From Zanthoxylum bungeanum (taxonomy: Eukaryota; Streptophyta; Magnoliopsida; Sapindales; Rutaceae): 64,000 bases of DNA. Every line of letters begins with the position of its first letter. Position 1 is the stretch's first letter. The notes beneath the pieces are model-generated. The model saw nothing but the letters and a program-made list of their open reading frames with translations, had not been told where the DNA came from and made no database searches. Below, piece after piece: positions 4,721-62,642 of this stretch. The position numbers and the translations under genes were made by a program. The stretch is from NCBI GenBank assembly GCA_019454045.1, contig SKCR01033445.1, positions 62,001 through 126,000 on the forward strand. Reading direction: 5' to 3'.

Positions 4721-4738
4721 TTGCGTCGTTACCGGGGA
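4721..4738 (+). other. Primer-binding site (tRNA-Asp type) of element A
   Basis: The 18 bases match TGGCGCCGTTGCCGGGGA at 15 of 18 positions. This consensus is complementary to the 3' end of plant tRNA-Asp and is typical of Athila elements. The perfect form is present in elements C and H. Confidence 0.85.
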
Positions 4739-7304: not shown

Positions 7305-7888
7305 GTGTTACAAGAACACAAGAAAGCAATTGGCTGGACTATAGCAGACATTCGAGGCATTAGTCCATCATTTTGCATGCACAAGATTCTGATGAACGAT
7401 GAGTACAAACCCACAGTGGAGCATCAACAGAGACTAAATCCAATCATGAAAGAGGTCGTGAAGAAAGAAATCATCAAATGGTTGGATGCTGACATCATTT
7501 ACCCCATATCATATAGTATTTGGGTGAGTCCTATGCAGTGTGTACCGAAGAAATGAGGAATTAATGTAGTCAGAAATGAAAAGAACGAGCTAGTTCCAAC
7601 AAGAACGGTGACTGGATGGAGAGTATGTATGGACTACCGGAGGCTGAACAAAGCAACAAGGAAATACCATTTTCCGCTGCCATTCATTGATCAGATGCTG
7701 GACAGACTGGCGTGACATGAGTTCTATTGTTTTCTAGACGGATACTCGGGGTACAATCAGATTGCCATCGCCCTAGAAGATCAGGAGAATACAACTTTTA
7801 CATGTCTGTATGGTACTTTTGCATTCCGCAGGATGCCATTTGGACTATGTAATGCTCCTGCCACATTCCAAAATTACATGATGGCCAT
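7305..7888 (+). pseudogene. Reverse transcriptase of element A, N-terminal half, split by element B
   Basis: RT fingers and palm part: AIGWTIADIRGISPSFC, then VVKKEIIKWLDA, WRVCMDYRRLN (about 7620), FLDGYSGYNQI (about 7733) and FAFRRMPFGLCNAPATFQ (about 7820). Stops occur at 7554-7556 and near 7713. At 7889 element B interrupts the gene; the frame resumes at 21176 with FMDDFFMFG, so the catalytic FMDD lies on the far side. The duplicated GCCAT makes the original join clear. Confidence 0.9.
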
Positions 7889-10092
7889 TGTAGGCACTGA
7901 ATTTTTGCATGTAAGTCCTGATGATGAGTCTCAAATGGAGACACTACCTCTTTTATTGTGAAAGTCGCGGGAAACGAACGTCGGAAGGGAAAAGTCAAGA
8001 ATTGACGCATTGTTGGATTTGATTCGCTGGATTAGCTTCAGGTTTGCTTGTTGGACCTCCGTTTTAAAACACACTCTTAGCCCAAAACCCCACAAACCAC
8101 ACGCCAAGCCCACACATTACCAAAGCCACACGCCCAAGCCCATTAAATCACATCCAAAAATATCTAACACATTAAACACATGATTAAAATCAAATTAAAT
8201 CACCTTCCTAATTAAAATAAATCACATGCCTAAATTAAATAAATCTAAATAATTCACCTTCCTAATTAAATCAAATCATATCCATAACTAAAAGAGAAGA
8301 AATCAAATTAAATCAAATCACTTCCCTAATTAAAAGATTTTTCCCTATCAAATACTAATTAAAAATATCTCTCATTAATTACCCAAATCCTTTCCCTATT
8401 CACACAAGGTAAACCCATCCCTTTGCCTATAAAAAGAACCATTAACCCCACATTTCTAACCCTGGCTCATTCTTACGAAATCAACCCTAATATTCTAAGC
8501 TCATTCACACGAAAACATGAGAGAAAATAACCTAGCTGCTCTCACGCCCTTGCCCTCACACCACACTACCGAGCCCACAAATTCTCTCCATTCACTAGCC
8601 CTCACGCACACACTCACCTCACCTCACTCACCGACACCAACAAAATCACACAGCCCTTCAACCAGCCAAAGCCACACACGTAACATATAAACCCTTCTCA
8701 CAGCCACGTTAGCCCATAATCAACCCGTCTTCACACAGCCCATGCAATAAACTGTGAACTGCCTCTACCCATGCATGCGTGGAACACAACGGCCAAGCAG
8801 TCCCTCACAAACCTAGTAATTCAGCCATGTTAACTACCCATCACCTACGCTGCAACACACTCACGTTAACTGCTCCCTCACTTAACCTGGAAACAAGCCA
8901 CTGACGCCCTACACGTGATGCACAAAACCTCTGAAACCAACAGCCCTTCATCACGCCTAAATACTGCCAGTGGACAGCCCTCAAACACACCATAAATAGT
9001 CCCCGAAATACCCCAAAACTGCCGCATAAATTGCCCAGTTTTTAGCCTTAAAACCGCACAAAACAGCAACCCAATACCCCTCAAAAAACCCCCAAAACAG
9101 TCCTCTAATTACCAAAAAAATAGTGACCAGAAAATACAACACAAACATCAGCGAAACTGAGTGAAAACACAGCCCATACAGCGAAACAGCGAGGAAAAAC
9201 GTTGGATTGGTGAACCAGAAAAGTTGCGGAACATCAACCCTTCTGACGGCCGTGTAACGCGCTTCCGAGAGACGACAAAAGAGGTTAGACCTGAGGGCAC
9301 CCTTTTTACTAATTATCTTTCGTTTCTTTACTTATTTTAATATATTATCGCATGAGAGTCGTTTGTTTTGGCATGATGTGAATTCCGGATGAACGGAATA
9401 AGTGTTCTCTTTTGTGATATATCGGATGGAAACCCGGACGTAAATTCCGTAGCCGAATCCGAATGGACGGTAGTGCGGTTTGCACTCGGGATACAACGCC
9501 TTGTACTATTTGACAGACACACGTATTTTGTTTCATCCAACCATGTATTTGAGCATGATTAGGTTGCTAGTACGTTATTTATTTTTGTAAGCATGATTTA
9601 GTCTAGTATGTTATTTAGTTATTTATTTTTAAGTATGATTAGTTATTTATTTTGCATTTGGAATTTGCATTATGTTTATGTTGTTATTTGTTTTCCGCAT
9701 TATATAATTGAAGCATGTTCATGGGATTGCCGTGTGTTATTGTGTGTTTGCCGTGGTGATAACTTACTTTTCAAGCATGCAAATTTAGACATAGGACTTA
9801 TCTTTATGAACATGAACTAGATATAGGTTATTCTTGAGCATGTTGCGTAGATTCGGTTAAGATATTGCACAAATCACATCATTACAAGTGGCATTAAGTA
9901 AGGGACCATTCCGAACCCAATGGTTTGAGGTCTTCCCTTGCGAGGGGTGAGTGCGGCCTTAAATCACATTTTCTCGGTTCACATCGGGTGGCGGCTCCAT
10001 GTTATTTCTCCGGTTTAGTTCCCCGTGAGCTATTCCGTACTCCTAAACAGGCCGCGAGCCTAGAATAGCGTCATCGATTTCTGTGTCCTACA
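7889..10092 (+). repeat. 5' LTR of element B
   Basis: 2204 bp. A TATA box TATAAAA at 8428-8434 probably starts the genomic transcript about 30 bp downstream. The middle is unusually C-rich on this strand (8540-9070). The 3' part holds GATGTGAATTCCGGATGAAC and similar blocks shared with 18972-21175 and, inverted, with the solo LTR at 53764-56117. Confidence 0.92.
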
Positions 10093-10095
10093 GTC

Positions 10096-10113
10096 TGGCG
10101 ACTCCACTGGGGA
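10096..10113 (+). other. Primer-binding site of element B
   Basis: TGGCGACTCCACTGGGGA starts three bases after the LTR end. Sites of this form are known from Tat/Ogre-lineage elements, usually assigned to tRNA-Arg; I could not verify the tRNA here. Confidence 0.7.
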
Positions 10114-12380
10114 TAGAGAATTTACCCCGAAATAATGTCTTGTAATGATTGTGATTTGTGCTTTAGTTAACCGTGTTTACCGTGGGTTGAAAGGGGTTTA
10201 ATCAAAGGCACTATTAAGGCTAGGTAATGGTTTGATGTCTTCCTTCATTCACTACTTTTCTATAAGGAAAAGTTGTGAAGGCACCTAGATAATCATGTAC
10301 TTGTAGCTTATTGTGATGGACTAATTTAGAGGACTCGTTGTTTATTCCTGTCACCAATGCGATAAGAGCCTAAGAGGCTTGGGTATTTAAGAGAGTTCGC
10401 TCCACCCTCCCTCTGGGGAATCTACAATGAGAAATCCATTTGACAGTCAGTCATACACCATAACTCATTGGCACGTACCTTAGCGTATAAAAAAAGTGCG
10501 CTCACTTGGTCGCTCGGACCCTTGAGTGGGGAGACCTAGTTGTGGGCAACCCTTCGTCGACGAGAGCCTTTGTCTGTACCCCTATAAACCCGCATGTGAA
10601 TTATTGTTGTATGACTAATAGAGACTATTCCTTTATGTTTGCGTTTAGGACCATCGTCATTTGGATTCAGTTGGACTTTTTGTCATGAGGTATGGGCTTG
10701 TTGGGCCATTTAAACTGGGATGAGTCTGTGCTTTATGACAATTGGGCCAAAAGTTTCTAAAATGCCGACAAGCCATTTTGTGTTTAGGCCTCGTATCATT
10801 TGAAGTTGTTTAGCCATGTTATCGCAAAGTGTAAACTTGTTGGGCCTTTTCAACTGGGACAAGTTTGCACCGCGCAATAGTATGATTGAATGCTTTAAAA
10901 TGATAATGGGCTGACTTATATATTCCATGCATCTCACACATCCCATGCATATCATGCATACATGCATCATGTTAACCCTGTGTCTTAAAATCCATCATAG
11001 ATATCCGTTGGGTTAGGAAAAAAAAAGAGACTTGTCAAAGAAGAGTTTAGCAAACATGGATATCGTGGAAAAGGAAACCGAGGAACATAAAATTTTACTG
11101 CAAGGATAGAAACACCATTGGGGGGCCTTCAAAACAAAACAAAAAAGAAAAAAAAGAGAAAAAAAGAAGAAAAAAAGAAGAGAAAAATTGGTTGTAGTCC
11201 TTAATAGTTAGGCATAAGTCCGATGATGAAATTGTTTACTTTAGGGTGAAACCTTAGAAACGATAAGCTCTTGATGTGCTTTTATCTGATACTTTGAGTG
11301 ATTGATCTATGTTAGACTCGCAAGCACTTGATTATGGTTCTTAGCAGTGAAAACCTGAGTAGTTAGCAAAGTGACTAGTTGAAGAAATTGTAGGTCGGTG
11401 AATGACCGTTTGCTTAGATGTCTATCTTGATTTGCTTATGTTATGATGTGTGGTATGGTTGAAAATGAAAGAAAAGTCTCTAAAGAAAAGAATTGAACCA
11501 CCTATAACCAATAAGCGTGAAGCTACCCATGGGCGAGTATTAGGACCACCATGAGGAGAAATGCTACCTTAAAGGGTAGGTGTGTTGAAAAAAAGAGAAA
11601 GGAAAAAAGAGAAAAAAAAAAAAAAAAAAAAAAAGAAGTTCAAAATAAAAAGAAAAAAGAAAGAGACAAAAGAGAAAGAAAACCATACCACATTGAGCAC
11701 AGAAAAGCAACTGCAAGCATAATTGAGACATCTAGGTTGGTTTGACCCATCGATCCCAATTTTTAGATGAAATCATTGAGTTGGCTTACCTGGGGATGAA
11801 TCTGCAAAGGAACATTTGCACACACACAGTTTGAGTCTGGCTTAGATCATTTATTCAAAGACTTGGATTTGAGTTGCATTGAATGTTTTGAAGGTTCTCT
11901 GGTTTCAAAACTGGAATTCTTTGAGGACGATAATATGTGTAGCTATTGGGACTATTTCGTAGCATGTGATATAGTATAATGATATGGAATGCCACACACG
12001 TGGTTCACATTGACCTATTACAAGCAGCGAAGAGCGAAAAGCTAAATCAAGACTGGGGGCGACCAGTCTACCATCCCGCGAATAAGGGATATAACAAGAA
12101 CTTGAGCCATGAGACCAAAGGAAACTGAGCAATCACCAGAAGAGAACTGAAAGGAAGAAACTGTAAGCAGACCCAGGGGGTAACCGAAGACATCTGTAGA
12201 CAAAGGGCGCCGAAGAGCACAAAGAAGACCTAACCCATCGGAATAGGAAACACATTCATGCATACATGCATACACGTCATATACACGCAATCTTCGTCTT
12301 GTTTTTATTCACAGGTTTCAAAGAAGAAAAAGAGAAAGCGGCAAAGGCAAGGCAATCAGAAGCAGCAACAGTACAATGTC
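10114..12380 (+). other. Non-coding leader of element B
   Basis: No open reading frame of note and no gag or pol motif. It contains purine-only tracts at 11118-11190 and 11571-11690, the second with a run of over 20 A. Elsewhere it looks like ordinary AT-rich sequence with the phrase GTTGGGCC...AACTGGGA repeated near 10700 and 10835. Confidence 0.6.
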
Positions 12381-12930
12381 ATCAGTTTCAGAAATGAATC
12401 AGCATCAGTTTTGGGAATGAATCCCAGGGGGCGAAGCCCGCATCATCAGTAGTTTCAGGAATGAATCCCAAGGGAATGAATCCCAGGGTCGAGGCCCACA
12501 TCGTTAGAGTTTCGGAATGAATCCCAGGGGGATGAATCCTAGGGTCGAGGCCCACATCGTCAGAGTTTTGGAATGAATCCTAGGGTCAAGGCCCACATCG
12601 TCAGAGTTTTGGAATAAATCCGGTAATGAATCCCAGGGTCGAGGCCCACATCGTCAGAGTTTTGGAATGAATCTGGGAATGAATCCCAGGGCCGAGGCCC
12701 ACATCAGCATCAGTTTTGGTGATGAGTCTAGGGTCGAGGTCCACATCAGTATTAGTTTTGGGGATGAGTCCCAGGGTCGAGGCCCACATCAGCAGCAGTT
12801 TTGGGGATGAGTCCCAGTGCCGAGGCCCATACATCAGTATCAGTTTTGGGGATGCGTCCCAGGGTCGAGGCTTACATCAATATCAGTTTTGGGGATGAGT
12901 CCCAGGTTTGAGGCCCACACATCATCAGAA
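12381..12930 (+). repeat. Tandem repeat array I of element B (about 40-60 bp units)
   Basis: About a dozen imperfect copies of a unit containing GAATGAATCCCAGGGTCGAG followed by GCCCACATC and CAG. Later copies change GGAATGAATCC to GGGGATGAGTCC. Related units reappear after the nested element C at 18591-18870 (CCCAGGGTCGAGGGCCCACA), showing that C sits inside the repeat-bearing 3' part of B. Confidence 0.85.
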
Positions 12931-13970
12931 AGCTGGGAATGGCACTCCGAGAATGGAGCATGGTTCAGGAATGAACAAAGCCGGGAATGGCACTCCAAGA
13001 ATGGAGCATGGTTTGAGAATGAGTAAAGTCGAGAATGGCACTCCGAGAATGGAGCATGGTTTGAGAATGAGTAAAGTCGAGAATGGCACTCCGAGAATGG
13101 AGCATGGTTCGAGAATGAACAAAGCCGAGAATGGAACTCCGAGAATAGAGCAAGGTTCGAGAATGAACAAGTCGAGAATGGAGCATGGTTCGGGAATGAA
13201 CAAAGCCGAGAATGGAGCAAGGTTCGAGAATGAACAAGCCGGGAATGGCACTCCGAGAATGGAGCACAATTCAAGAATTAACAAGCCGGGAATGGCACTC
13301 CGAGAATGGAGCACATTTCGAGAATGAACAAGCCGGGAATGGCACTCCGAGAATGGCGCACAGTTCGAGAATGAACAAGCCGGGAATGGCACTCCGAGAA
13401 TGGAGCACAGTTCGAGAATGAACAAGCCGGGAATGGCACTCTGAGAATGGAGCACAATTCTAGAATGAACAAGCCGGGAACGAAACTCCAAGAATGGAGC
13501 ACAGTTCGAGAATGAACAAGCCGGGAATGATACTCCGAGAATGGAGCACAGTTCGAGAATGAACAAGCCGGGAATGGCACTCTGAGAATGGAGCACAGTT
13601 CTAGAATGAACAAGCCGGGAATGGCACTCCAAGAATGGAGCACAGTTCGAGAATGAACAAGCCGGGAATGGCACTCCGAGAATGGAGCACAGTTCGAGAA
13701 TGAACAAGCCGGGAATGGCACTCCGAGAATGGAGCACAGTTAGAGAATGAACAAGCCGGGAATGGCACTCCGAGAATGGAGCACAGTTCAGGAATGAACA
13801 AGCCGGGAATGGCACTCCGAGAATGGAGCACAATTCGAGAATGAACAAGCCAGGAATGGCACTCCGAGAATGGAGCACAGTTCGAGAATGAACAAGCCAG
13901 GAATATCACTCCGAGAAGGGAGCACAGTTCGAGAATGAACAAGCCGGGAATGACACCCCGAGTATGGAGT
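12931..13970 (+). repeat. 47-bp tandem repeat array II of element B
   Basis: About 22 copies of a 47-bp unit with blocks GAATGAACAAGCCGGGAATG, GCACTCCGAGAATGGAGCAC and AGTTCGA. Copies from about 13210 onward are very regular; the first few vary (AAAGTCGAG for AAGCCGGG). Because 47 is not a multiple of three and the unit lacks stops in some frames, long artificial ORFs appear on the - strand; they are not treated as genes. Satellite-like arrays near the 3' end are typical of Tat/Ogre-type elements. Confidence 0.93.
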
Positions 13971-14063
13971 CCACCTCCCTGCTAGCGCTAAGTTTAAAGT
14001 CGTCAGCCAGACTTGACTTCTCGAACGTTAAGCTGGATCTGAAAGTGTAACACTTTCTTTTTG

Positions 14064-14387
14064 TCACTCAAATGATTCTCCCCAGTAGTGCTTGACACGC
14101 TTGTTTTTAACCTTGAAAGTTTTGTTGGAGTCAGGATCATGTATCTCAACGGCTCTATCTGGTAAAACTTTGGTGATCACAAATGGACCTGACCACCGTG
14201 ATTTTGGCTTCCATGGGAAGAATTTCACCCTTGATTTGTTTAACAGTACCTTCTGCCCTGGTTCCAGTTGTATGCGCACTAACTTCTCATCATGTCTTTT
14301 CTTGCCCTTTTCTTTGTACAATTTGGCATCCTCAAAAGGCTGATTGTGAAATTCCTCCAATTCGTTGAGCTGGTGGAACTTTTTCTC
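14064..14387 (-). pseudogene. Integrase C-terminal tail of element C
   Basis: About 107 codons matching the DNA-binding tail of Athila integrase: [40 protein letters not shown] and VKHYWGESFE, ending in TGA at 14064-14066. A TAA at 14388-14390 separates it from the upstream Gag-protease frame, in the same reading frame. The match to A (23041-23345) is clear. On its own it has no catalytic residues. Confidence 0.85.
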
Positions 14388-16622
14388 TTATGTTGCTTGT
14401 AGTGTAAGAATTGGCTTCTTCAGTACAAAAGACGCTTTATCTTTAGGCTCCACAGGCAATTGACATGTTTTAAGTTTGTCAATAGAACTTTGCATTGCAT
14501 CAGAGTTCTGAACGGTACTATGTATCACATCAAGTTTGAAACATTCCTCCTTCTTTTCATCATCTGGGAAATTCATGGCCTTGAAATCATTGAATGTTAC
14601 TTCTTGGTCTTGTACCCTCATGGTTAATTCTCTTTTTTGTACATCAATAATGGTTCGACCTGTAGCCAAGAATGGTCTCCCGAGGATGATTGGCACGTCT
14701 GCGTCTTCCTCCATATCAAGGATAATAAAATCTGCTGGGAAAATGAATTTGTCAACCTTGACCAGCACATCTTCAACTACACCTCTCGGAAATACGAGCG
14801 TTCTATCAGCAAGTTGTAGTGAGACTGAAGTTGGCATTGTTTCTCCAATCTGTAATTTCCTGAAAATAGAAAAAGGCATCAAGTTAACACTAGCACCTAA
14901 ATCACACAGAGCCTTACCGAAGTCATGTTCTCCTATGGTGCAAGGAACAGTGAAACTGCAAGGATCTTTCAACTTTGGGGGAAGTTTCCTCTGAATGATA
15001 GCGCTGAATTCTTCTGATAATGCTACTGTCTTGTAATCTCCCAATCTCCGCTTTCGTGAAAGAATGTCTTTCATGAATTTGGCATAGCTGGGCATTTGTT
15101 CCAACGCTTCTGCAAATGGAATGTTGATATGCAGCTTTTTAAAGATCTCCAGGAACCGAGAAAACTGCATGTCCAATTTGTTCTTCTGAAGACGTTGAGG
15201 AAAAGGTGGAGGTGGAATGATTTGTTCTTTTTCCTTTGCTTCTTTTTCCTCCATCTGTTGCTTTGTTTCTTTTAGAACTTCCTCAGCAGCTGTTTTGGCT
15301 CCAACATCTTTGTTGATTTCAGTACCACTTTTTAACATGATGGCATGACATTGTTCCTTCCCCATGTTTCTTGGATTTGGCTCTGTGTTGCTAGGAAGGG
15401 TACCTGGCGGTCTGTAACTCTGAGCATTTGCCAGTTGTCCAATTTGATTCTCCAGTGCTTTAATAGAAGCAGATTGACCTTGAATTAATGCTGCTTGGGA
15501 TTGAAACATAGCATCATATCTTGCTGCTTGAGATTGAAACATAGTATCATATCTTGCTGCTTGAGAGTCGTGTTTTACTTCTATCATTTTCAAGTGGGTC
15601 AACATTTCTGTTATTCCTGATTCATTTGCATGTTCCTTGCTTTTGTTCTGTTGCTGGAATTCAGGTGGTGGATAGTTCTGCTGTTGGCCTGAATTGTTGC
15701 TCCATGAAAAATTGGGATGATTCATCCACCCTGGGTTGTAGGTGTTGGAATATGGATTGTTCCCCTGTCTGTTGAAATTGTTGACATAATTTACCGTCTC
15801 TTCAAGTTGGTTCGACTCTGGTGCTCCTCCATATGGTGAACTTGTGGATCTAGTGGTAAGAGTCTCCATGAATTTGCATATCTGATCTAGCTTGGCGTTG
15901 ACTGCTGTATTGGCTCCACTTTCATATATTCCTGCAATTCTTTGGATCATGCTCCTTTCTGTTGGCCACAAAGAATTGTTGTTGGTCATTTCTTCGATTA
16001 GGTCCCAGGTTTGATCTTCTCCTTTTGCCATCAAGGCTCCTCCAGCAGCAGCATCAATTGTGGTTCTCATTATTCCAAAAATCCAATTATAGAATGTTTG
16101 GACTTGAAGCCATTTTGGAATCTCATGGTGAGGACATTTCCGGAGCAAATCTTTATACCTTTCCCAAGCTTCGCAGAGGGATTCTGAATCTTGTTGTACA
16201 AAGGATGTGATGTCATTCCTCAGTTTTTCGGTTCTGGCTGGTGGAAAGTACTTTGCAAGAAATTTGGTGGCTAAAGTGTTCCAAGTTGTGATGGAACCTG
16301 CTGGTAGTGAATGTAGCCAAGCTTTAGCTCTGTCCTTCAAAGAGTATGGGAAAACACGCAATCTCATTGCTTCTTCAGCTTCTCGGTTGTAATTGAAAGT
16401 GCCGCAAACTTCCAGGAATTTGCTGATGTGGGCATTAGGATCTTCAGTTGCATTCCCCCCAAACTGAACTGACTGCTGAATCATCTTAATGCATGTTTTG
16501 ATGTCACATGCATTTGCTGGTAAGGGAGGAAGTACAATACATGAAATGAGTCTGTCAACCACCGGAATGGTTCTGTCTCGAAAGGGAATTGGTGGTGCAA
16601 CGTTCAAAGGTTTAGGTTCCAT
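14388..16622 (-). CDS. Athila Gag-protease polyprotein of element C (open, with deletion)
   Basis: This 744-codon frame is the longest in the window. Residues 1-60 lead into the Gag core at about 45-185 (QFGGNATEDPNAHIS, LKDRAKAWLHSLP, FPPARTEKLRND, EAWERYKDLLRKCPHHEIP). A Gln/Asn-rich stretch at about 260-330 ends in QAARYD-type short repeats. The protease is at about 590-690 with CDLGASVNLMPFS as active site and IILGRPFLATG as flap end. At about 14466 an in-frame deletion joins the region after protease directly to the integrase tail (CQLPVEPKDKAS). The TAA at 14388 then ends it. The upstream ATG at 16730 is followed by TGA and TAA before this ATG. It could still make Gag and protease, but not RT. 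Whether it is expressed is unknown. Confidence 0.85.
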   Translation of the reverse strand: MEPKPLNVAPPIPFRDRTIPVVDRLISCIVLPPLPANACDIKTCIKMIQQSVQFGGNATEDPNAHISKFLEVCGTFNYNREAEEAMRLRVFPYSLKDRAKAWLHSLPAGSITTWNTLATKFLAKYFPPARTEKLRNDITSFVQQDSESLCEAWERYKDLLRKCPHHEIPKWLQVQTFYNWIFGIMRTTIDAAAGGALMAKGEDQTWDLIEEMTNNNSLWPTERSMIQRIAGIYESGANTAVNAKLDQICKFMETLTTRSTSSPYGGAPESNQLEETVNYVNNFNRQGNNPYSNTYNPGWMNHPNFSWSNNSGQQQNYPPPEFQQQNKSKEHANESGITEMLTHLKMIEVKHDSQAARYDTMFQSQAARYDAMFQSQAALIQGQSASIKALENQIGQLANAQSYRPPGTLPSNTEPNPRNMGKEQCHAIMLKSGTEINKDVGAKTAAEEVLKETKQQMEEKEAKEKEQIIPPPPFPQRLQKNKLDMQFSRFLEIFKKLHINIPFAEALEQMPSYAKFMKDILSRKRRLGDYKTVALSEEFSAIIQRKLPPKLKDPCSFTVPCTIGEHDFGKALCDLGASVNLMPFSIFRKLQIGETMPTSVSLQLADRTLVFPRGVVEDVLVKVDKFIFPADFIILDMEEDADVPIILGRPFLATGRTIIDVQKRELTMRVQDQEVTFNDFKAMNFPDDEKKEECFKLDVIHSTVQNSDAMQSSIDKLKTCQLPVEPKDKASFVLKKPILTLQAT

Positions 16623-16837
16623 GTTGACTAAAGCTTATTGGCCTTCTCACCTTTCCCTTCTCAACTGTCTGATGGTTCTTTCAATTTCTGGGTCAAGCGG
16701 TCGAAGTTTAAAGCTTCTGGTTCGTCTCATGTAGTTTCTGAGAACCTGAAACACAAGAAAACAAAAACAATAAGTAAAAAGAAATTAGATACAAGTAACG
16801 TATCTAACCCCAAAACTAATAGTGAAAGATAAATAAG

Positions 16838-16855
16838 TCCCCGGCAACGGCGCCA
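16838..16855 (-). other. Primer-binding site of element C
   Basis: The + strand reads TCCCCGGCAACGGCGCCA, i.e. the perfect tRNA-Asp 3' end. It lies six bases inside the LTR border at 16862 and fixes the element as - strand. Confidence 0.92.
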
Positions 16856-16861
16856 AAAACT

Positions 16862-18590
16862 TGACCGGCGTAAACACACACATATAACGCAAGCGCACGT
16901 ATCGTTCAAGTAGTATAAAAATATCGATCCCACGAGGACTTAATATCTAATCTATTAATTTTATGAGGTCAAATGATTACTAGTATCTAACAGGTTGTTT
17001 GATTGATTTGAAATGGTGACGATTCTAAATTTAAAAACAAGTAAATAAAATTGTTCGAAAGTAGGTTTTAAGAAAATTCAATATTAAAAACTATCTAGGG
17101 TTGTGATTTCTTCCAATATCATTTTAAAGATGAAGTGGTTATTTTATGTTTGTTTAAGAAATCGGTTTACTAACCTGGAACACTAAATTATGCAAAAGCC
17201 TCTGTCGATGGTCAGACACAAATACCCAGTTTAACCCAATTGAACCATATGTCTATCTCAACCAAATTATCCGGATTCATTAAGTTTAAGTTCCAATTAT
17301 GGCTACCCCCGCCCGACAGGTATATGTCTATCCTGTAAGGAAATCTATTAAAGGGTTATATATCCTCAAGGAAGATCGTGGGCTATTAAGTCTAAGGCTG
17401 AAACCTAAAATTACTTTGTCAAGTTTATTTTAGATTTACCACATCAATCTTATTAGTGGCCAATTAACAAGACGCATTAAGCTTAAGACTTAAAAAGTAA
17501 ACCTTTAAATTACCCAAACTATAATTTTACCCCTTATAAACCGGTGATATTGGATTTCATCACAACCCCAGATAACTGGCTTAGTTACGACACATATTTA
17601 CGGGTAGTAAAAAAAACTTAAATAAAATAAAAGACATAAAGTAAAATACTGAAAATTAAATACTAAAAATTAAATACTGAAAAGTAAATGCTGAAAGTAA
17701 ATGCTGGAATTAAATACTGAAAAGTAAATGCTGAAAGTAAATTACTGAAAAGTAAAAACTAAAAATTAAAGAAAGAAAAGTATTGTGCGTAAAAGTAAAT
17801 TGCGGAAAGTAAAAAATGAAAAGTAAAGAAAAGAAAGTGCGAAAGCGGAAATTAATTACTGAAAGCTGTAAATAAACAAACAAGATACAATCTTCTTAGT
17901 ATTCTTAAGGAATTCCTTAGAAGAAAGTATGAATTTTACAAATGAAATGGCTTGGTATTTATAGGCAAAATTTTACCTCCATCAAATCATCCACCAAATC
18001 AATTATTAATTGCTCCACTAATTGCTCCACTAACTGCTCCACCAAATCCATTATTAATTGCTCCACTAATCTCTTATCATGTTTGGTGATGATTTGATAA
18101 TTTTTATTATTTATTTATTAATTTATTTTTTTGCTTTGAAAATGATTGAAAGTGACTTTAATAATTACACACAACACACTTCTGGATGGTTCATCAATTT
18201 CGGGCATGAAATATTCAGAATTCGAAATTATTTTGCCTTTCAAAGCTGTATATCTTTGAGTCTTCTTTAATTTGGAACTTGAATCAGCACAATCCGATAT
18301 CGGAGTAAAAGGTTATGCCCAAAATACGATAGATGCGCAAAATTAGAATTTCCAAAACTGCATTTCGTCAAAAACGCCATTTCAAGTTTCCAATCTCCAA
18401 AATTAAAATATCAAGTACAATAATTGCCCTTATTTGACCCATATTTCATCCTAAATGATTTCATTGAGATTCGATATTATTTTATCTGAAAAATAAACTA
18501 AAACATATCAAAACGTTCATCAAACCCGAGAAACTAAACAAAATATTAAGTTAAAGGGGCGGTAAATATTGATATATTTTCCGCTCATCA
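16862..18590 (-). repeat. 5' LTR of element C
   Basis: 1729 bp. On the - strand it starts TGATGAGCGG and ends CCGGTCA, like the LTRs of A and H. Its R/U5 half is close to theirs, but the U3 half differs. Short expansions occur at 17630-17870 (units like TACTGAAAAGTAAATGCTGA) and at 17990-18075 (TTGCTCCACTAA units). Confidence 0.88.
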
Positions 18591-18971
18591 CAAAGCCCAG
18601 AGGTCGAGGCACCTCACCACCATATCAATTCAGTTCAAAAAAACAGGCAAGTCAGGTGGCAGTTGGCGAGCCAGGAATTCATTCATCATTACTTTTAGGA
18701 TGTGTCCCAGGGTCGAGGGCCCACACATCCGTTGCCGTTTCAGGATGCGTCTCAGGGTCGAGAGCCCACTGCATCAACAACATAGTTCACATTCGGTGGT
18801 TCGGGAACAAAGCCCAGGGCTCGAGGCACCTCGCCACCATATCAACTTAGTTCGAAGCAACAGGCAAGTCAGGTGGCAGCTGGCAAGCCAGGTAAGTAAA
18901 AATGCATTGCATAACTTTCATAGGATTGTCACTGTTACACAGTGCACAAGTCCCATCAAAGTGGGGGTGAC
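18591..18971 (+). other. 3' internal end of element B after the nested element C
   Basis: Contains two copies of AAAGCCCAGRG..CGAGGCACCT (18592 and 18820) and CCCAGGGTCGAG units related to array I, then the purine tract AAAGTGGGGGTGAC that directly precedes the 3' LTR. No coding signal. Confidence 0.75.
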
Positions 18972-21175
18972 TGTAGGCAATGCATTTTTGCATGTAAGTC
19001 CCGATGATGAGTCTCATATGGAGACACTACCTCTTTGATTGTGAAAGCCGCGGGAAACGAACGTCGGAAGGGAAAAGTCAAGAATTGACGCATTGTTGGA
19101 TTTCATTCGCTCGATTAGCTTTGGGTTTGCTTGTTGGACCTCCGTTTTAAAACACACCCTTAGCCCAAAACCCCACAAACTACACGCCAAGCCCACACAT
19201 CACCAAAGCCACACGCCCAAGCCCATTAAATCACATCCAAAAATATCCAACACATTAAACACATGATTAAAATCAAATTAAATCACCTTCCTAATTTAAA
19301 TAAATCACATGCCTAAATTAAATAAATCTAAATAATTCACCTTCCTAATTAAATCAAATCATATCCCTAACTAAAAGAGAATAAATCAAATTAAATCAAA
19401 TCACTTCCCTAATTAAAAGATTTTTCCCTATCAAATACTAATTAAAAATATCTCCCATTAATTACCCAAAACCTTTCCCTATTCACACAAGGTAAACCCA
19501 TCCCTTTGCCTATAAAAAGAACCATTAACCCCACCTTTCTAACCCTGGCTCATTCTTACGAAATCAACCCTAATATTCTAAGCTCATTCACATGAAAACA
19601 CGAGAGAAAATAACCTAGCTGCTCTCACGCCCTTGCCCTCACACCACACTGCCGAGCCCACAAATTATCTCCATTCACTAGCCCCCACGCACACACTCAC
19701 CTCACCTCACTCACCGACACCAACAAAATCACACAGCCCTTCAACCAGCCAAAGCCATACACGTAACATATAAACCCTTCTAACAGCCACGTTAGCCCAT
19801 AATCAACCCATCTTCACACAACCCATGCAATAAACCGTGAACTGCCTCTACCCATGCATGCGTGGAACACAACGGCCAAGCAGTCACTCACAAACCTAGT
19901 CATTCGGCCACGTTAACTGCCCCTCACCTACGCTGCAACACACTCATGTTAACTGCTCCCTCACTTAACCTGGAAACAAGCCACTGACGCCCTACACTTG
20001 ACGCACAAAACCTCTGAAACCAACAGCCCTTCATCACGCCTAAATACTGCCAGTGGACAGTCCTCAAACACACTTCAAACAGTCCCCGAAATACCCCAAA
20101 AATGCCGCATAAACTGCCCAGTTTCTAGCCTTAAAACTGCACAAAACAGCAGCCCAATACCCCTTAAAAAACCCCCAAAACAGTCCTCTAATTACCAAAA
20201 AATAGTGACCAGAAAATACAACACAAACAACAGCGAAACTGAGTGAAAACACAGCCCAGACAGCGAAACAACGTGGAAAAATGTTGGATTGGTGAACCAG
20301 AAAAGTTGTGAAACATCAACCCTTCCGACAGCCGTGTAACGCGCTTCCGAGAGACGACAAAAAAGGTTAGACCTAAGCGCACCCTTTTTATTTATTATCT
20401 TTCGTTTCTTTTACTTATTTTAATATATTATTGCATGAGAGTCATTTGTTTTGGCATGATGTGAATTCCGAATGAACGGAATGCGTGTTCTCTTTTGTGG
20501 TATATCGGATGGAAACCCAGACGTAAATTCCGTAATCGAATCCGAATGGACGGTATTGCGGTTTGCACTCGGGATACAACGCCACGTACTATTTGACAGA
20601 CACACGTATTTCGTTTCATCCAACCATGTATTTGAGCATGATTAGGTTGCTAGTACGTTATTTATTTTTGTAAGCATGATTTAGTCTAGTATGTTATTTA
20701 TTTATTTATTTTTAAATATGATTAGTTATTTATTTTGCATTTGGAATTTGCATTATGTTTATGTTGTTATTTGTTTTCCGCATTATATAATTGAAGCATG
20801 TTCATGGGATTGCTGTGTGTTATTGTTTGTTTGTCGTGGTGATAACTTACTTTTCAAGCATGCAAATTTAGACATAGGACTTATCTTTATGAACATGAAC
20901 TAGATATAGGTTATTCTTGAGCATGTTGCGTAGATTCGGTTAAGATATTGCACAAATCACATCATTACAAGTGGCATTAAGTAAGAGACCATTCTGAACC
21001 CAACGGTTTGAGGTCTTCCCGTGCGAGGGGTGAGTGCGGCCTTAAATCACATTTTCCTGGTTCTTACCGGGTGGCGACTCCATGTTATTTCTCCGATTTA
21101 GTTCCCCGCGAGCTATTCCGTACTCTCAAACAGGCCGCGAGCCCAGAACAGCGTCACCGATTTCTGTGTCTTACA
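18972..21175 (+). repeat. 3' LTR of element B
   Basis: 2204 bp, colinear with 7889-10092 along the whole length. TATA box at about 19511. It ends TTACA and is followed by the GCCAT duplication and the continuation of the RT gene of A. Confidence 0.92.
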
Positions 21176-22030
21176 GCCATTTTCTCAGTCATGCTGGAAC
21201 AGAGTATGCAGGTTTTCATGGATGACTTCTTTATGTTTGGAGACTCTTTTGACCACTGCTTGTAAAATCTGGAACATGTGTTACAAATATGTGAAGATAC
21301 CAACCTGGTGCTCAACTGGGAGAAATGCCATTTCATGGTGCAGGAAGGCATCGTCCTTGGACACCGGATCTCACAAAATGGGATCGAGGTAGACAAAGCA
21401 AAGATTGAAATAATTAAAAATTACCTCCGCCAACATCAGTCAAAGGGATTCGAAGTTTTCTCGGACAAACAGGTTTTTACAGGAGATTTATCAAAGACTT
21501 CTCAAAGATTGCTAAACCTATGCGCAATCTTCTGGAAAATGATATGCCTTTCGAATTCACCAAAAATGTCACGAAGCTTTTGAGATCCTAAAATAGAAGC
21601 TGGTTTCTGCTCTTATCATTGTAGCACCAGACTGGACTCTTCCATTTGAGATGATGTGCGATGCTAGTGATTTTGTTGTAGGTACAGTTTTGGGACAACG
21701 CAAAGCAAAAGTTTTCCACACCATTTATTACTCCAGCAAAACTCTGAATGAAGCTCAACTCAACTACACAACCACCGAAAAGGAGTTGCTCGCAGTTGTG
21801 TTCGCTTTGATAAATTTTGATCCTATCTGCTGGGTCCCAAAGTGGTGGTCTACACAGATCATTCAGCAATCAAATACCTGAATGCGAAGAAAGATGCCAA
21901 ACCCAGATTGATCCGTTGGATACTTCTTCTGTAAGAATTTGACGTGGAGATTCGAGACAGAAAAGGAACAGAAAACAAAGTGGCAGATTATTTATCAAGG
22001 ATCGAGAATGGAGAAACAGCTGGCAAAGAA
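21176..22030 (+). pseudogene. Reverse transcriptase C-terminal half and RNase H of element A, broken
   Basis: Begins with the RT palm: QVFMDDFFMFG (about 21211), where MDD is the catalytic pair, then VLNWEKCHFMV and GIVLGHRIS. A stop lies near 21263 and frameshifts near 21440. RNase H starts with FEMMCDASDF (about 21650) and has TEKELLAVVFAL (about 21780); a frameshift near 21830 is followed by DHSAIKYL and VADYLSR. The catalytic Asp and Glu positions are recognisable, but the gene cannot make a continuous protein. It continues the frame cut at 7888. Confidence 0.88.
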
Positions 22031-23381
22031 TTGACAATCAAAGAAAATTTTCCAGATAAACAGCTGTTTGCCAAGAAACAGCATGATGCTCCTTGGTATG
22101 CTGACTATGTCAACTACATAGTATCGGGAAAATGGCCGTTGGAATGGACAACTCAGCAACGGAAGAAGTTCTTCAAAGAAGTCAAACATTATGTTTGGGA
22201 TGAACCATACATGTTCAAACATTGTGGTGATCAATTACTGAGACGATGTATTCCACAAGAGGAGGTCAATAGTGTCTTGCAGCACTGTCATTCATCACCA
22301 TACGGCGGACACTTCAGCGGGAATAAAACTGCAGCCAAAGTCTTTCAATCAGGTTTGTTCTGACCCACTCTTTTTAAATATGTTTACTTGTTTTCTCTTC
22401 AATGTGACAAGTGCCAGAGAACGGGAAATATTTCGAGGAGAAATGAAGGACCTCTGCAAAATATTCTGGAAGTGGAGATATTTGATGTATGAGATATTGA
22501 TTTTATGGGACCCTTTTGTTCCATCATTCAGAAACATGTACATACTGGTTGTTGTAGACTACGTCTCCAAATGGGTTGAAGCAATTGCACTACCATCAAA
22601 GGATTCAAAAGTGGTGATCAAATTCCTTAAAAAGAATATTTTCACTCGCTTCGAAACACCTCAGGCTATTATCAGTGATGGTGGCACACATTTCTGCAAC
22701 AAATATTTCGATGCACTCCTATCCAAATATAGAGTTACTCATAAAGTTGCCACTGCCTATCATCCACAGTCAAACGGACAGGTTGAAGTTTCAAACAGGG
22801 AAATCAAAAGAATCTTGGAGAGAACCGTTGGATCAACAAGGAGGGACTGGTCTACAAAATTGGATGACGCATTATGGGCCTACCGGACAGCTTACAAAAC
22901 ACCCATTGGTATGTCCCCATATCGAATGGTGTTTGGGAAAGCATGACATCTGCCAGTTGAGCTTGAACACAAGGCTTACTGGGAACTAAAGAAGTTGAAT
23001 CTTGATCCATAAGCTGCAGGAGAGAAACGACTTCACCAACTCAATGAATTGGAGGAATTTCGCCTACAGGCTTATGAGAATGCCAGATTATACAAAGAAA
23101 AGACCAAGAAATGGCATGATCGAAAAATAGTATGTAGACAACTGGAACCAAGGCAGCAGGTGTTGTTATACAATTCAAGGTTAAAAATTTTCCCTGGAAA
23201 GTTGAAATCAAGGTGGTCAGGTCCATTTATGATCACTCAGGTTTTACCATATGGAGCTATTGAGTTACTTGATCCCAACACCAATGAAACATTCAAGGTT
23301 AACAGTCAGCGTGTCAAGCACTACTGGGGAGAATCATTTGAGCGACAAAAAGAAAGTGTCACATTTTCAGATCCAGCCTAA
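22031..23381 (+). pseudogene. Integrase of element A, broken
   Basis: The zinc-binding N-terminus is visible as [14 protein letters not shown], then a stop at 22361 and [10 protein letters not shown] (about 22405). The core shows DFMGPF (about 22500), IISDGGTHF (about 22670) and [12 protein letters not shown] (about 22780), the D, D and E of the active site. Stops follow GKA at 22944 and after NLDP near 23010. The C-terminal tail (LYKEKTKKWHD, SRWSGPFMITQVLP, VKHYWGESFE) ends at 23381. Normal Athila gene order places the 3' non-coding region next; here a LOG-like copy follows instead. Confidence 0.88.
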
Positions 23382-23579
23382 CGTTCGGGCAGTCATGTCT
23401 AGATGACGACTTTAAACTTAGCGCTAGCAATGAGGCAACCCATGCAATTTGTGTATATATTGTGATCTGGTGTGTTTTATTTTTGTGAGTTTAATTTTTG
23501 CAGGTAAAGTCATTTCACGATGGAAGAAGCTCTCGTAAATCTTCACAAGTAATTTCCTTCTCTCCCTCAAAAATCTCTG

Positions 23580-24163
23580 ATGAAAGTCTACAAAGCTCGC
23601 TTGGAACAAATGAGACTACTGATGATCAAGAATATGCACCTAGTATACGGTGGTGGCAATCTTGGATTAATGGGGATTATTTCAAAGGCCGTACAGGATG
23701 GAGGCAGTCAAGTTCTGGGAATCATCCCAAAACCCTTGGCAGAGTGGATCTTATAGGATCATCAAACGGAGAAGAACTGATCGTGCCAGGTATGTTTGAA
23801 CGACTGGTGGAAATGATTAATCGTGCTGATGCTTTTATTACTTTGCAAGGTGGTTTGGGTACGTTGGAGGAGATTTTTACAGTGCTATCTTGGGCGAACT
23901 TGAACATACACCAGATACCAATTGGACTATTCAACGCAGATGGATTTTATGATTTTCTTTGTGTATTTCTTGATGATGCCCGGAGAAATGGGTTCGTGTC
24001 AAAACCTTTAAAAGAACTCATTTTCACTACCAGAACTGCCCAGAATTTAATTGACCAAATCCTAACCTATGAACCATAAATTGACCCTATCATTTCCAAG
24101 ATAAAATGGTCCAATGATGATCGTGGTAAGAAATGTCGAATAAATCTGGATCTTAACCTTTAA
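23580..24163 (+). pseudogene. Captured LOG-like gene (cytokinin riboside 5'-monophosphate phosphoribohydrolase), intronless, broken
   Basis: LOG enzymes release active cytokinin bases from their nucleotides in the plant cytosol. Frame one (23580-23750) reads [31 protein letters not shown] and LAEW, the nucleotide-binding front half. A one-base loss near 23745 then moves to another frame: NGEELIVPGM, INRADAFI, QGGLGTLEEIF, LNIHQIPIGLFN and GFVSK. The family motif PGGxGTxxE is present with Pro changed to Gln; Glu is kept. A TAA at 24077-24079 follows LTYEP, but the frame reads on to 24163 through a basic tail ending LDLNL, similar to tails I recall in some plant LOG proteins. The first ~25 residues (CVFCGS strand) are missing. 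About 190 codons run without introns although plant LOG genes normally have several. It lies between integrase and 3' LTR of A, on the same strand. The family call is strong; activity is unlikely. Confidence 0.87.
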
Positions 24164-25373
24164 ATTTCCCATTTAGATGTAGAATTTCAGCTAACCAGGT
24201 ACTATCTTCTAAACTCATCTTCTACTTTTTAAGACATTGGGGACAATGTCTCATTTAGGTTTGGAGGTGGGGAATAGTTGTAGTATTTTGTTGTTTTTAT
24301 TTTTAGTCCAAAATTTTCGAAAAATTCAAAAACAAATCGAAAAATTTTACAAAAATCAAAAAAAATATTGTGTTTTTAATTTGATTAATCATGTAAAATT
24401 GGTATGAGATAGTTGTGTAAGGAGTTTCCACTCCTGAGACGTATCTCAACCTATTTCAGAACAAGTTAATTTTTATTTATTTCATTTTGAATTATTTAAT
24501 TTGTGAATTCTCCTTAAAACTGATTAAAATGGATCTTCATATGCTTAGTTGACAGATATTATCAACATACATGGTAACATATGGACATGAGTAGTAATTG
24601 ACGAGTTTGTAATATTCAGTGCTCTAGTTTAATTGGAGGAAGCATCTAAAAAAGTGATGGGATAAAAAAAACGTCTGAGATCCGAGTTATTAAGTCAGTA
24701 TGGGTGTTTTAACACCTAGTGCTCTAAAACCAACTGGTTTGGGAGCCACTGGCCCAAAGCTTGCTACATGGATGGTAGATGTTGCAAAATATATTTATCT
24801 GAAGTCAGAGTAATTAAGTCTGTAGGGGTATCTTAACACCTAGTGCCCTAAAGCCAACTGGTTTGGGAGTCACTGGCCTAAAGCTCGCTACATGGATGGA
24901 AGATATTGTATATTACTCTCTTCTTAACTACACTTGTGACTATTGTGGGCAAAAATGAGTTGATTAATATTTTGTTGGCTGTGTGTATGGAGAATGGTAA
25001 AAATAAATCGGAGAATTTACTTATTCAGTAATTTAGAAAGAAAGAAAACAACTTTAAACTTGGATAAGAAGTTTTGCCTAGTTAGTCATTAACTTCTTTA
25101 TTCTCTTTTCTCTTGTCTTTTTATTTTTGTGTGCATTAGTTTTACTATCTTTTTTACTTTTGTAAAACGTTTGTGGGTATCGTTTCTGTAAGCCCTCACG
25201 AGACTATACCTCATCCACTAGGGACACCTAGGGGTTTAAAGGCTTGTTACATACGCTAAATGCAACCATGATCCCTACAAAAGTGGCTTAGCTTAATTTT
25301 ATTTTAAAGATGTTTATGTTATTTTATTTTATTATTTTGCTCGAGAACTAGCAAAATGTTAGGTTTGGGGGTA
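24164..25373 (+). other. 3' non-coding region of element A with two purine tracts and a duplication
   Basis: An Athila-like block ACATTGGGGACAATGTCTCA is followed by a purine-rich tract at about 24258, and a second tract AGGTTTGGGGG at 25361 directly precedes the 3' LTR and is the likely plus-strand primer. A segment of about 105-110 bp at 24681-24790 is repeated at 24804-24908 with minor changes (block AACACCTAGTGC...CTACATGGATGG). No coding signal seen. Confidence 0.75.
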
Positions 25374-27344
25374 TGATGAGTGGTAAATATATCACTATTT
25401 CCCACTCATTTGACCTAATATTTTGTATAGTTTCTTGAGCTTTGTGAAAATTTTGATGTGTTTTGTGTTATTTTGTAGATATATAAAGTTTCAGGACTCT
25501 CTGGAAGTGATTTGGGGCCAAAACAGTAAAAAAACGGACAAAAGGGCAAAATGGTCATTTGGTGTGTCGCGACCGCTAAAGTGCGTCGGGAGCCTGCTAA
25601 AATGCACTGGGACACGTGTCAAAATCTGAGAAGTTTGATCTTGCTAATATGCACCAGATCTTGCTAACGTGCGCCGATCTTGCTAACGTTCGCCTACCAC
25701 GTGTCATCATCACAGGTTGCCGACAACCGCCATCGCCATGAGTCAGCGTGCCACGTGTTAGCCACATCATCATCAGCCAATCATCTCATGACACGTGTCA
25801 CAATTATACGGTTTCGACAATCAATATCATCATGTGTCACCATGTCATCGCCATATCATCGCCACATCAGCACAATTATTGAGTTAATCATCCAAAATGC
25901 CACGTCAGCAGATAACGAAATCAAAGCAGCCAATCAGAGCATGCCACGTAGGCGCATCGCGATGCAAGAACAAACTTGCGCGTCGTGACGCGCGATGCAT
26001 TTTTTTGCCTATAAATTCAGCTTGAAATTTCAGTTTCAGATGTACCTTCCTCTCTATAATTCTCTGATAATTCTAAGGATTTTGTATCTAGTTTGTTTTA
26101 GTTTCAGTTTTATAATTAATTTTATTCACTTTTTGTAATAGTAATTTACTTTCTTTACTTTTTCAGTTTTTATTATTCAACAATGAGGAGGTAACTTCCC
26201 CCTGCTAGGGTGAAAGGTAAAACTTTTATTATTGCTATTTAGATTAATCTCCCTTAATTATAATACAATAACTACTTAAAACCTGACTTAATGATAATGC
26301 CGCTATATTGGCCGGTTGGTAATTGATATTAAATTGGTTTTAACCTGACTAAGCATGGATACCGTCTGGTTGGTCGATTGGTAATTAATTATTAATTTGA
26401 CTTAATCAGGTTACCACCTATATGGCTGGTTGGTAATATCACACAAGTTAATATATTATATTAATGGAGATATCTAAAATAGTAGTAATAAAAGTGGATC
26501 CTTTAACCCTAGCATTTTCTTTAATTGTACTTTTTCCTTTTTAATTTTCAACATTTACTTTTCAACATTTTAATTTATGTCTTTTATTTTTAAGTTTTTA
26601 CTAGTTGTAAATATGAGTCGTAGCTAAGCCTGTTATCTGGGGTTGTGATGAATTCCAATATCACCGGTTAATAAGGGGTTATTTTATAATTTGGGTAATA
26701 TAAATGTTTACTTATTAAATCTTAAGCTTAATGCTTCTTGTTAACTAGCCATTAATAAGATTGATCTGGTAAACTTAAAATAAACTTGACAGAGGAATTT
26801 TAGGTTTTAGCCTTAGACTTAATAGCCCATGATCTTCCTTGAGGATAGATAACCCTTTAATAGATTTCCTTACAGGATAGACATATACCTGTCGGGCGGG
26901 GGTAACCACAAATGGAACTTAATCTTAATGAATCTAGGTAATTTGATTGACATAGACATATGATTTAATTGGGTTACACTGGGTATTTGCATCTGACCAT
27001 CGACAGAGGATTTTGCAGAATTTCATGTTCCAGGTTAGTAAACCAATATATTACACGGACATGAAATAACTTCTTCATCTTTAAAAAGATATTGGAAGAA
27101 ATCACAACCCTGGATAGTTTTATAAACTTGAATTTTCCTCAATCTACTTTCGCGTATTTTTATTTACTTGTTTTAATTTTAAAGTCACAATTCCAATCAA
27201 ACAATCAATCCAATAGATACTAGTAATCATTTGGCCTCATAAATTTAATAGCTTAGGTATTAAGTCCTCGTGGGATTGATACTTTTTATACTACTTGAAC
27301 GATACGTGCGCTTGCGTTATACGCGTGTGATTACGCACTGGTCA
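25374..27344 (+). repeat. 3' LTR of element A
   Basis: 1971 bp, colinear with 2741-4714. CACGTG motifs remain at 25613, 25698, 25752 and 25792, while others have become CATGTG, consistent with C-to-T decay at methylated CG sites. Followed by the ATATG target duplication. Confidence 0.93.
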
Positions 27345-28850
27345 ATATGTGTTAATTATGATGATATGATAATATTTAGATAGTTTCAGAAATTTTCAGA
27401 GGGTCCAGGATCTTTCCGTATCGTTATCGGAAGCTTTTGCGAAAGATTTTCTGAAAATATGTAATTTGAGGATTTAAATTATTTGGTTGTCCTGGAATGG
27501 TATATCATAATGTATTAAGAGTATTTGAATGGTTTTAGGAGGAACCAGAAATATCCGAAACATTCCAGATTTGTTCATAACACTTTCGGATTTTTCAGAG
27601 GATTTTCGGGTTTTAGGTCGGAAAGTGATTTTGATGTTATGAATTTGTAGAGTTATATTTTTTAAGAGTAAGAGACTAAAATTTTTGGAATCAGACTTGA
27701 TTTAGGTATTCCGAGAAGATCTAGAAATTTGTTATCATTAGTCGAGAATTCTGGGTAACGACGATTCTAATCATATTTCACTATTTATTTTGACATATCT
27801 GAATATGATCAGGGGTGTTTGTGTAGCCAAGTAAGTATTTCATGCAATGAATATTTGATGTATGGATTGTTGTTTGCTTGTTTGTTTCTATAGGAAATAT
27901 GTGTTGTGTGTGTGTGTAGATATGTCGGTATAATCATTTTTTGAACAAGCACACGATATCGTGTTATCTTTTTATAATTTTGTGAGTTACTTGCCAATGG
28001 ATGATGGATTTGATATATGTTGTGTGATGTGTGATGTATCTGACGTGAGTATGGACATTATTGTTTATTTATTTTCCGAAAAAATGTTTTGAGAAGTTAG
28101 TTTTAAAAAAAAAAATTGAGTGAAATGTATTTGACTTTGCTTATGTTATTATATGATATGTTTATGTCAAGGTGTGCATATTAGGTTTTTACTGTTTTAT
28201 ATTTTTGAAACCATCGTGGTGCTTTGTATATGGTCTTATCCAGCTGCAATGGACCGACCTGTAACCCTTTTGTTGACATGGTCTTATTTCGGACAGTGTT
28301 TGGTTTGTGCGCGCGACCCAGGCATTGGACTCCCGATAATTTCAACCAGCTGACTTGGTTCCTGGACACCTGATATGATTTTATGATGACATTGATTTAG
28401 AAATTTGATTTCGATCACAGAGATCATTTTTCTGATATATTGAGAAACCTTTGTTTTATAGTTTTCTAAAAAAGCATTTTGAAAAGTTATTCTCAAAAGA
28501 TTCACTTTTGGAATACATATATCTAAGACGCATTAGATTTTTCTTACGATATTATATATTTTCTCCATGGTGCACGTACTATGTTTTACTTATTTTAATG
28601 ATTTTGACCCGTTGTGGTGCATGTATAGGGTTTTATCCATCTAGAAATGGTCGACCTGTTACCCTCTATCCACATGTTCATGTATTCGTACATTGTCTAG
28701 TCAGGGTGCGCGATTCAAATAATGGACGCCTGATTAGTTTTGATGATTTCGATTTTGGAACTTGATTTAAATGTTTGGAAATTTTTATTTTCAGAAATAT
28801 TTATTTTTGAATAAGTTTGGCTTTAAAAATGATTACCTTTTGTTTTGGTA
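27345..28850. other. Right flank of element A, non-coding, possibly old LTR
   Basis: Continues the sequence cut at 2740. No supported gene. It contains a diverged internal duplication: about 28211-28352 and 28612-28745 share GTGGTGC, TTTTATCCA, TGGNCGACCTGT and GACCC/GATTC...GGAC blocks. A short TG run lies at about 27903. General look and motifs resemble a chromovirus LTR, but no second LTR or primer site was found. Confidence 0.35.
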
Positions 28851-60226: not shown

Positions 60227-60232
60227 AGTTTT

Positions 60233-62640: not shown

Positions 62641-62642
62641 AT

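Follow-up and report, generated by a model that had tools for sequence, protein, structure and literature searches.

The feature analyzed here lies in the window, the whole 64,000-nucleotide stretch of Zanthoxylum bungeanum DNA under study, and is best read as a degenerate copy of an accessory gene conserved in a family of Athila-type LTR retrotransposons. We are confident that this family carries a LOG gene that is borne by the element, has been under selection, and has been repurposed. We favor an explanation in which an old capture may have given rise to a nuclear accessory protein with a TOPLESS-binding tail, and as a whole we give it an even chance of being right.

Element A and its decayed LOG copy

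Element A is a full Athila-type LTR element spanning positions 2741-27344, with TG...CA ends and a 5-bp target site duplication (TSD), ATATG, that was read at 2736-2740 on the left and at 27345-27349 on the right; TG...CA LTRs with a 5-bp TSD (GACTC) were also found at another LOG locus, L041. The 5′ LTR (2741-4714, plus strand; TG...CA ends read) is 92.07% identical to 25374-27345 in a BLAST of the window against itself, and the 3′ LTR (25374-27344, plus strand) was placed by the same comparison together with a reading of its end and TSD. Divergence between the two LTRs is 0.060 (K2P, 1938 sites), which we take to correspond to a few million years at plant rates in common use. The primer-binding site (PBS; 4721-4738, plus strand) matches 15/18 positions of a tRNA-Asp-type PBS, an 18-mer that is presumably the complement of tRNA-Asp and that is matched at 18/18 positions at window position 60233, in L041, and in L042, and at 17/18 in L039. 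The gag region is a DNA match to the gag of element B, which itself matches PF03732 (E 7.2e-22). The pol order is RNase H (21597-21881, plus strand; PF17919, E 5.6e-21), the H2C2 zinc domain of integrase (PF17921, below cut-off), and the integrase core frame (22242-22946, plus strand; PF00665 [rve], E 3.8e-15), with a weak reverse transcriptase (RT) match below cut-off; element A thus has the order of gag, RT-RNase H, and integrase expected of Athila, with RT weak. Pol ends in an open frame for the integrase C terminus (23013-23381, plus strand), which matched no Pfam family at 1e-3 and is 53-90% identical, over the best stretch, to its counterpart in 13 other LOG loci. Upstream of the 3′ LTR, a ACATTGGGGACAATGTC block was read at 24234-24250 (plus strand), and its exact 14-mer core is present in 27/38 other LOG loci. 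We assign element A to the Athila (Ty3-gypsy) lineage on the basis of its PBS, its extra 3′ ORF, and the CATTGGGGACAATG block, which we take to be an Athila trait.

A nested LTR element (7889-21175) lies in the pol of element A, with LTRs at 7889-10093 and 18972-21175 (95.4% match) and a TSD, GCCAT, at 7884-7888 and 21176-21180, all ends having been read. Inside this nested element, positions 12413-14024 hold 47-48-bp tandem repeats, with 16 in-register copies in family D1. An internally deleted Athila-type remnant occupies 13974-17714 (minus strand), where a gag frame (14388-16634) abuts an integrase C-terminal frame and 16861-17714 forms the LTR side. Direct and inverted copies of ~1-2 kb, ~74-97% identical, fill 29306-53357 and resemble more nested repeats. 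Finally, a related element, D, was found by self-BLAST at 58188-64000 (plus strand) and extends past the end of the window. Directly beyond (L051) are its 3′ LTR, its LOG gene, and ORF-X, a companion gene located after integrase and before LOG that encodes a protein of ~180 aa in other copies; in L051 ORF-X and LOG are both frameshifted, and the LOG tail is intact.

A sequence-only reading of the window had described a LOG-like frame lying in sense orientation after the integrase of element A and before its 3′ LTR, with Athila sequence on either side. We recovered this frame as an N-terminally truncated LOG-derived gene (23627-24163, plus strand) that matches PF03641 at E 7e-27, a value that rules out chance similarity; the flanks are as described, with integrase ending at 23381 on the left and the ACATTGGGGACAATGTC block and LTR on the right. 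Its best solved relatives are the Arabidopsis LOG proteins At2g37210 (E 9.8e-27) and At5g11950 (E 9.1e-21). The one frameshift (near 23745) and one late stop (24077-24079) reported earlier are both present, and the missing N terminus was traced to a single deletion of ~795 bp relative to L039 (junction 23627-23629), which removed most of ORF-X and ~40/217 LOG codons. The LOG sequence is real but was begun too early, at 23580: positions 23520-23628 (plus strand) are a remnant of ORF-X, comprising its start only and carrying one in-frame stop (tblastn, 86% over 43 aa), and LOG runs from ~23627. Similarly, the copy had been called near complete and intronless, of which the second part stands, the frame reading through where host LOG genes are interrupted (8/8 loci read), but the first does not, given the deleted codons. 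Past the late stop, the codons still read the C-terminal tail GKKCRINLDLNL (24125-24160, plus strand), a basic cluster with an EAR-like LDLNL (24146-24160), up to a stop at 24161-24163, and the position of the PGGxGTxxE motif reads LQGGLGTLEE. Just upstream of ORF-X, a pyrimidine-rich tract ending in CAG (23485-23503, plus strand) was read that resembles a splice acceptor and may function as one.

Abundance, carriers, and selection

The element carrying LOG is very abundant in the host genome, which was surveyed over 3.96 Gb in 51,709 contigs. A profile search with PF03641 returned 47,331 first-look candidates and a search with ORF-X returned 45,721, loose numbers that are lower bounds for large families. 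From each search 150 places were scored; all of those scored against PF03641 match (E <= 2.6e-33), 147/150 without an internal stop. Among 38 loci chosen by LOG score, a selection biased toward intact copies, LOG was present in 38/38 and integrase plus ORF-X in 13/38, with at most 3.4 kb viewed per locus and near-duplicates suspected (L005/L006, L019/L020, and L037/L038). A second sample of 20 loci was chosen with the ORF-X of L008 as the query and ranked by similarity; it leans to L008-like copies, overlaps the LOG-chosen set (L052 is L008, and L068 is L015), and includes a near-duplicate pair (L058/L059). Integrase was found in 20/20 of these loci, some LOG in 19/20, more than 500 nt of LOG in 18/20, and a complete open LOG frame in 6/20. 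These loci bear out the proposal that the LOG-derived gene is carried as part of the element, and integrase and LOG between matching LTRs were seen directly for element A and its neighbor, element D. An alternative, raised in the sequence-only reading as a chance insertion, is that LOG landed independently in this single copy of the element. No support for it was found, and it is refuted by the same module in element D (L051), the 45,721 ORF-X candidates, and the ORF-X-chosen loci; we assign it a vanishingly small probability.

A second type of carrier, represented by L041 and L042, is ~7.7-7.8 kb long, pairs LOG with a Cys-motif or acidic ORF, and has no match to the window's pol; in L041 the LTRs are 98.5% identical to each other, and the LOG frame is complete, with 218 codons. 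In the pol-less carriers L041 (2583-3785) and L003 (1-810), two ORFs were observed, one with a Cys motif and one acidic, for which the best Pfam match (E 0.011) is below cut-off. In L005 and L006 the open LOG frame extends well upstream (L005, 1081-1341) across a hydrophobic stretch, which may be a coincidence or an N-terminal extension. A scan of viral contigs with the LOG alignment gave 27 pattern matches, none of them confirmed, and a search of a plasmid collection gave no match.

The check for purifying selection proposed in the sequence-only reading returned dN/dS values of ~0.2-0.3 among host copies. In the LOG-chosen sample, 24/38 loci have a complete frame, and the 23 that remain after removal of one near-copy gave a dN/dS of 0.213 for the core (bootstrap, 0.15-0.29) and 0.245 for the tail, the latter with a wide interval (0.09-0.90). 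Because that set was picked by LOG score, the 18 ORF-X-chosen copies, from which 2/20 loci with <500 nt of LOG were left out, are the better test of selection, and they gave 0.268 for the core and 0.236 for the tail. Among score-chosen copies with a complete frame (L006 and L016 left out), dN/dS was 0.195 without integrase in the stretch viewed (0.14-0.27, n = 15) and 0.256 with integrase (0.18-0.38, n = 7). ORF-X gave 0.28 (n = 8 copies). The low values may in part stem from selection that acted on master copies prior to amplification. They nevertheless weigh, in both the LOG-chosen and the ORF-X-chosen samples, against LOG being a passenger, that is, a captured host fragment without function that was amplified by chance with the element. 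The broken copy in the window and the 14/20 ORF-X-chosen copies without a complete LOG frame would suit a passenger; tails of the same kind in rows sharing only ~50-60% identity with those of the host and the retention of LOG in pol-less copies would not, and we consider this reading highly improbable.

Pocket, tail, and companion gene

In CgLOG, according to the excerpted report (PMC4979012), Arg99 and Glu122 are proposed to be catalytic, the prenyl site is made up of Met96, His97, Lys100, Glu125, and Trp129, and alanine at substrate-site residues nearly abolishes activity. Arg99, Glu121, Glu122, and Trp129 are retained in 38/38 host element copies, which thus keep the catalytic PGGxGTxxE together with Arg99 and Glu122. 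His97, Lys100, and Glu125 are each replaced in 38/38 (by S in 36, L in 37, and I in 35, respectively), and no copy keeps any of the three. The cellular proteins compared were the top 120 among 7,901 matches to a single Arabidopsis LOG3 query and are therefore LOG3-like only; prenyl-site and catalytic residues are retained in 120/120, and At5g11950, in its own alignment, also retains His97, Lys100, and Glu125. Among 153 relatives termed element type by their sequence, with element context seen in the host genome only, Lys100 occurs in 0 (6 gaps), Glu125 in 0 (2 gaps), and His97 in 6, and Arg99 is absent from 16 of the 146 with a residue there (Q in 12 and L in 4). The basal relatives P0132, P0135, and P0160 and five listed Xanthoceras proteins retain all three prenyl-site residues. 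Those from Xanthoceras sorbifolium (P0087-P0090 and P0113) are annotated at 290-406 aa, contain two consecutive LOG-like stretches with a mostly ordinary pocket, and are possibly element or tandem copies. The LOG fold itself is kept: L030 scores 121.5 bits against PF03641, and an AlphaFold model of the relative P0002 (pLDDT of >=90 at 160/217 residues) matches LOG structures in Foldseek, the best being 2a33 (E 9.8e-22).

With three of the five prenyl-site residues changed in every host copy, it is doubtful that the element LOG performs the ordinary cytokinin reaction, and the label "cytokinin-activating" given to the window copy is not supported. That the protein is still an ordinary cytokinin-activating enzyme, raising free cytokinin and division in transposing cells, might be argued from its fold, with LOGs as the closest structures, from the retention of Arg99 and both Glu residues of PGGxGTxxE in all 38 copies, from the low dN/dS, and from the ordinary residues in P0132, P0135, P0160, and the five Xanthoceras proteins. 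Against this stand the three replacements in the host, the finding of Lys in 0/147 relatives with a residue at position 100, and the effect of alanine at the substrate site (PMC4979012), and we regard such an enzyme as decidedly unlikely. Alternatively, the protein may have become a nucleotide hydrolase for a new substrate, acting on a different pool of nucleotides in the course of reverse transcription or in stress signaling. This would fit the kept catalytic residues, the hydrophobic residue that stands in place of Lys100 in almost all copies, and a low dN/dS across the entire fold, beyond the tail. However, it leaves the conserved basic and LxLxL tail unexplained, and Arg99 is absent in 16/146 relatives; we consider it unlikely.

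Under the favored reading, as a nuclear accessory protein, the element LOG would act through its tail. A basic cluster plus LxLxL is the usual ending of element LOGs; examples are KRRRINLDLNL (host), KKLRLDLSLSL (Populus), and KKRRVDLNLSL (elsewhere). A strict LxLxL within the last 9 residues was found in 30/38 host copies, 112/156 relatives, and 0/120 cellular proteins, where 136/156 relatives (by the script's test) and 97/120 cellular rows reach the tail region; a relaxed pattern raised these counts to 32/38, 127/156, and 5/120. The 6/38 host copies without even the relaxed pattern mostly lack it through truncation or frameshift. The tail lies outside the profile and the query that picked the LOG loci, and LxLxL codons are present in 18/18 usable ORF-X-chosen copies. 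EAR motifs follow the consensus LxLxL or DLNx(x)P according to the excerpted source (PMC9956375), and the tail conforms to the first of these forms (30/38 strict). In the P0002 model, residues 203-217 have a pLDDT of <50, which predicts disorder and is what one would expect of a short linear motif. Tails of the basic-plus-LxLxL type are short and may have no function, and we view a TOPLESS mechanism for the element LOG as an appreciable possibility that falls short of a probable one.

The companion gene has affinities of its own. Among 13 loci with ORF-X, the 9 with open frames were scanned against Pfam and non-open frames were left out; Viral_NABP was matched by 9/9 at E <= 0.01 (best, 6e-8) and Carla_C4 by 8/9 (best, 5.2e-7), and the Pfam cut-off for Viral_NABP, 23 bits, was exceeded by L008 (29.9) and L005 (26.9). 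ORF-X contains KKRRAK and, after it, a four-Cys motif, for example CYKCARMFCNTRC. Viral cysteine-rich proteins (CRPs), in the excerpted account (PMC12172455), combine an NLS with a zinc finger; several of them are silencing suppressors, and one is a transcription factor that causes hyperplasia. At 146-181 nt upstream of the LOG start, a pyrimidine tract with a GACAG-GATCCAGAC-like block was found in 37 of the 38 loci with a start site, the CAG being lost in 10/37 of these splice-acceptor-like blocks, and a similar site lies upstream of ORF-X in the window. These signals suggest that LOG and ORF-X could both be expressed from spliced subgenomic RNAs.

Origin and comparison with known systems

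The host's own LOG-like exons account for 29 of 150 scored places and are 54-94% identical to the query; the other 121 are <=48% identical. The intronless frame of the element, set against the interrupted host LOG genes, fits the capture of a spliced transcript. In a phylogenetic tree, element-type LOGs form one clade (support 100/99, 77 rows) and cellular LOGs another (96/91, 18 rows, namely 17 of the 120 listed LOG3-like proteins plus At5g11950), with a long branch leading to the element LOGs. The tree left out relatives that were alike at ~93% or above or that fell outside 185-260 aa, so that the Xanthoceras proteins are not among its rows. Plant LOGs comprise five groups, according to the excerpted source (PMC11593424), of which the tree covers the LOG3-like proteins and At5g11950. 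A LOG family tree had been proposed as a means of finding the parent gene; the element LOG falls outside the 18 cellular plant rows, and no parent was found among them. Since Populus and Reevesia proteins fall inside the element-type clade and Xanthoceras proteins match the element-type profile, the element LOG gene looks old.

Athila-like elements reportedly carry a further ORF on the 3′ side of pol (Steinbauerova et al. 2011), and two of these elements are said to be similar to LOGL4. According to the excerpted report (PMC9289625), a YgdH/LOG domain is also present in gypsy consensuses from Populus trichocarpa and from two species of Citrus, a finding presented there as "in line with" the 2011 study. 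LOG capture is therefore not new, contrary to what the sequence-only reading had supposed, nor is it limited to the host. In the open-licence literature, outside which most subscription papers lie, we found no report in print of the pocket change, the EAR-type tail, or the virus-type companion. Searches of the same literature found nothing related on EAR or TOPLESS with LTR retrotransposons, on carlavirus with retrotransposon or Athila, or on PF05515 with retrotransposon, and no LOG paper for LOGL4 or Athila among the matches listed; neither "LOG" nor "cytokinin" occurs in the review PMC7264820.

Taken together, we propose that a spliced host LOG transcript may have been captured long ago as cDNA and turned into a nuclear protein whose C-terminal EAR-type motif would bind TOPLESS-family corepressors. 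Such binding would alter host transcription in those cells in which the element is mobile, perhaps at genes for silencing or growth. ORF-X may be a second nuclear factor, and both proteins would be made from spliced subgenomic RNAs. As a tentative extension, the two genes might form a nuclear effector cassette in which a plant-virus-type zinc-finger factor and a LOG-fold factor turned into a TOPLESS-binding EAR protein jointly reprogram host transcription, silencing, or cell division to the benefit of the element, which would have aided its rise to tens of thousands of copies. If true, this would be a plant transposon that, like a virus, develops proteins for manipulating its host, with a captured hormone gene and a gene of viral type as the raw material, and the reason why some Athila families retain extra genes in the envelope position would become testable. 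Populus P0036, a "LOGL10" entry, falls inside the element-type clade; entries of this kind are possibly not cytokinin genes, and including them could make LOG families look larger than they are.

The cellular proteins LOG3 (At2g37210) and LOG8 (At5g11950) share with the element LOG the fold and the catalytic Arg and Glu, at ~46% and ~40% identity, respectively, in the structural match of P0002. The element LOG differs from them in the replacement of H97, K100, and E125, in its basic and LxLxL tail, in its lack of introns, and in being element borne. The Citrus and Populus elements (PMC9289625) resemble the host element in having a LOG-type domain in Ty3-gypsy, but their excerpted account does not include the pocket changes, EAR-like tail, virus-type ORF, pol-less carriers, or such copy number found in the host element. 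Likewise, in excerpts of the same report, Phalaenopsis gypsy elements keep a host-type enzyme gene, AlkB/2-ODD, across many copies; there the enzyme is different, the elements have Ogre/Tat traits, and RNA demethylase activity has been shown, whereas the element LOG, like ORF-X, is known from sequence. ORF-X, with its KKRRAK and four-Cys motif, resembles carlavirus and allexivirus CRPs (Viral_NABP and Carla_C4) in their NLS-plus-zinc-finger arrangement (excerpted in PMC12172455). Unlike them, it lies in the envelope position of an LTR element and has a long extra C-terminal part. Finally, the TOPLESS-binding EAR effectors HaRxL21 and Jsi1, as excerpted (PMC7446885 and PMC8126959), also place an EAR-type motif in the protein of a genetic parasite; the element LOG, in which the motif is recognized by sequence, differs from both in being a transposon protein with a LOG fold.
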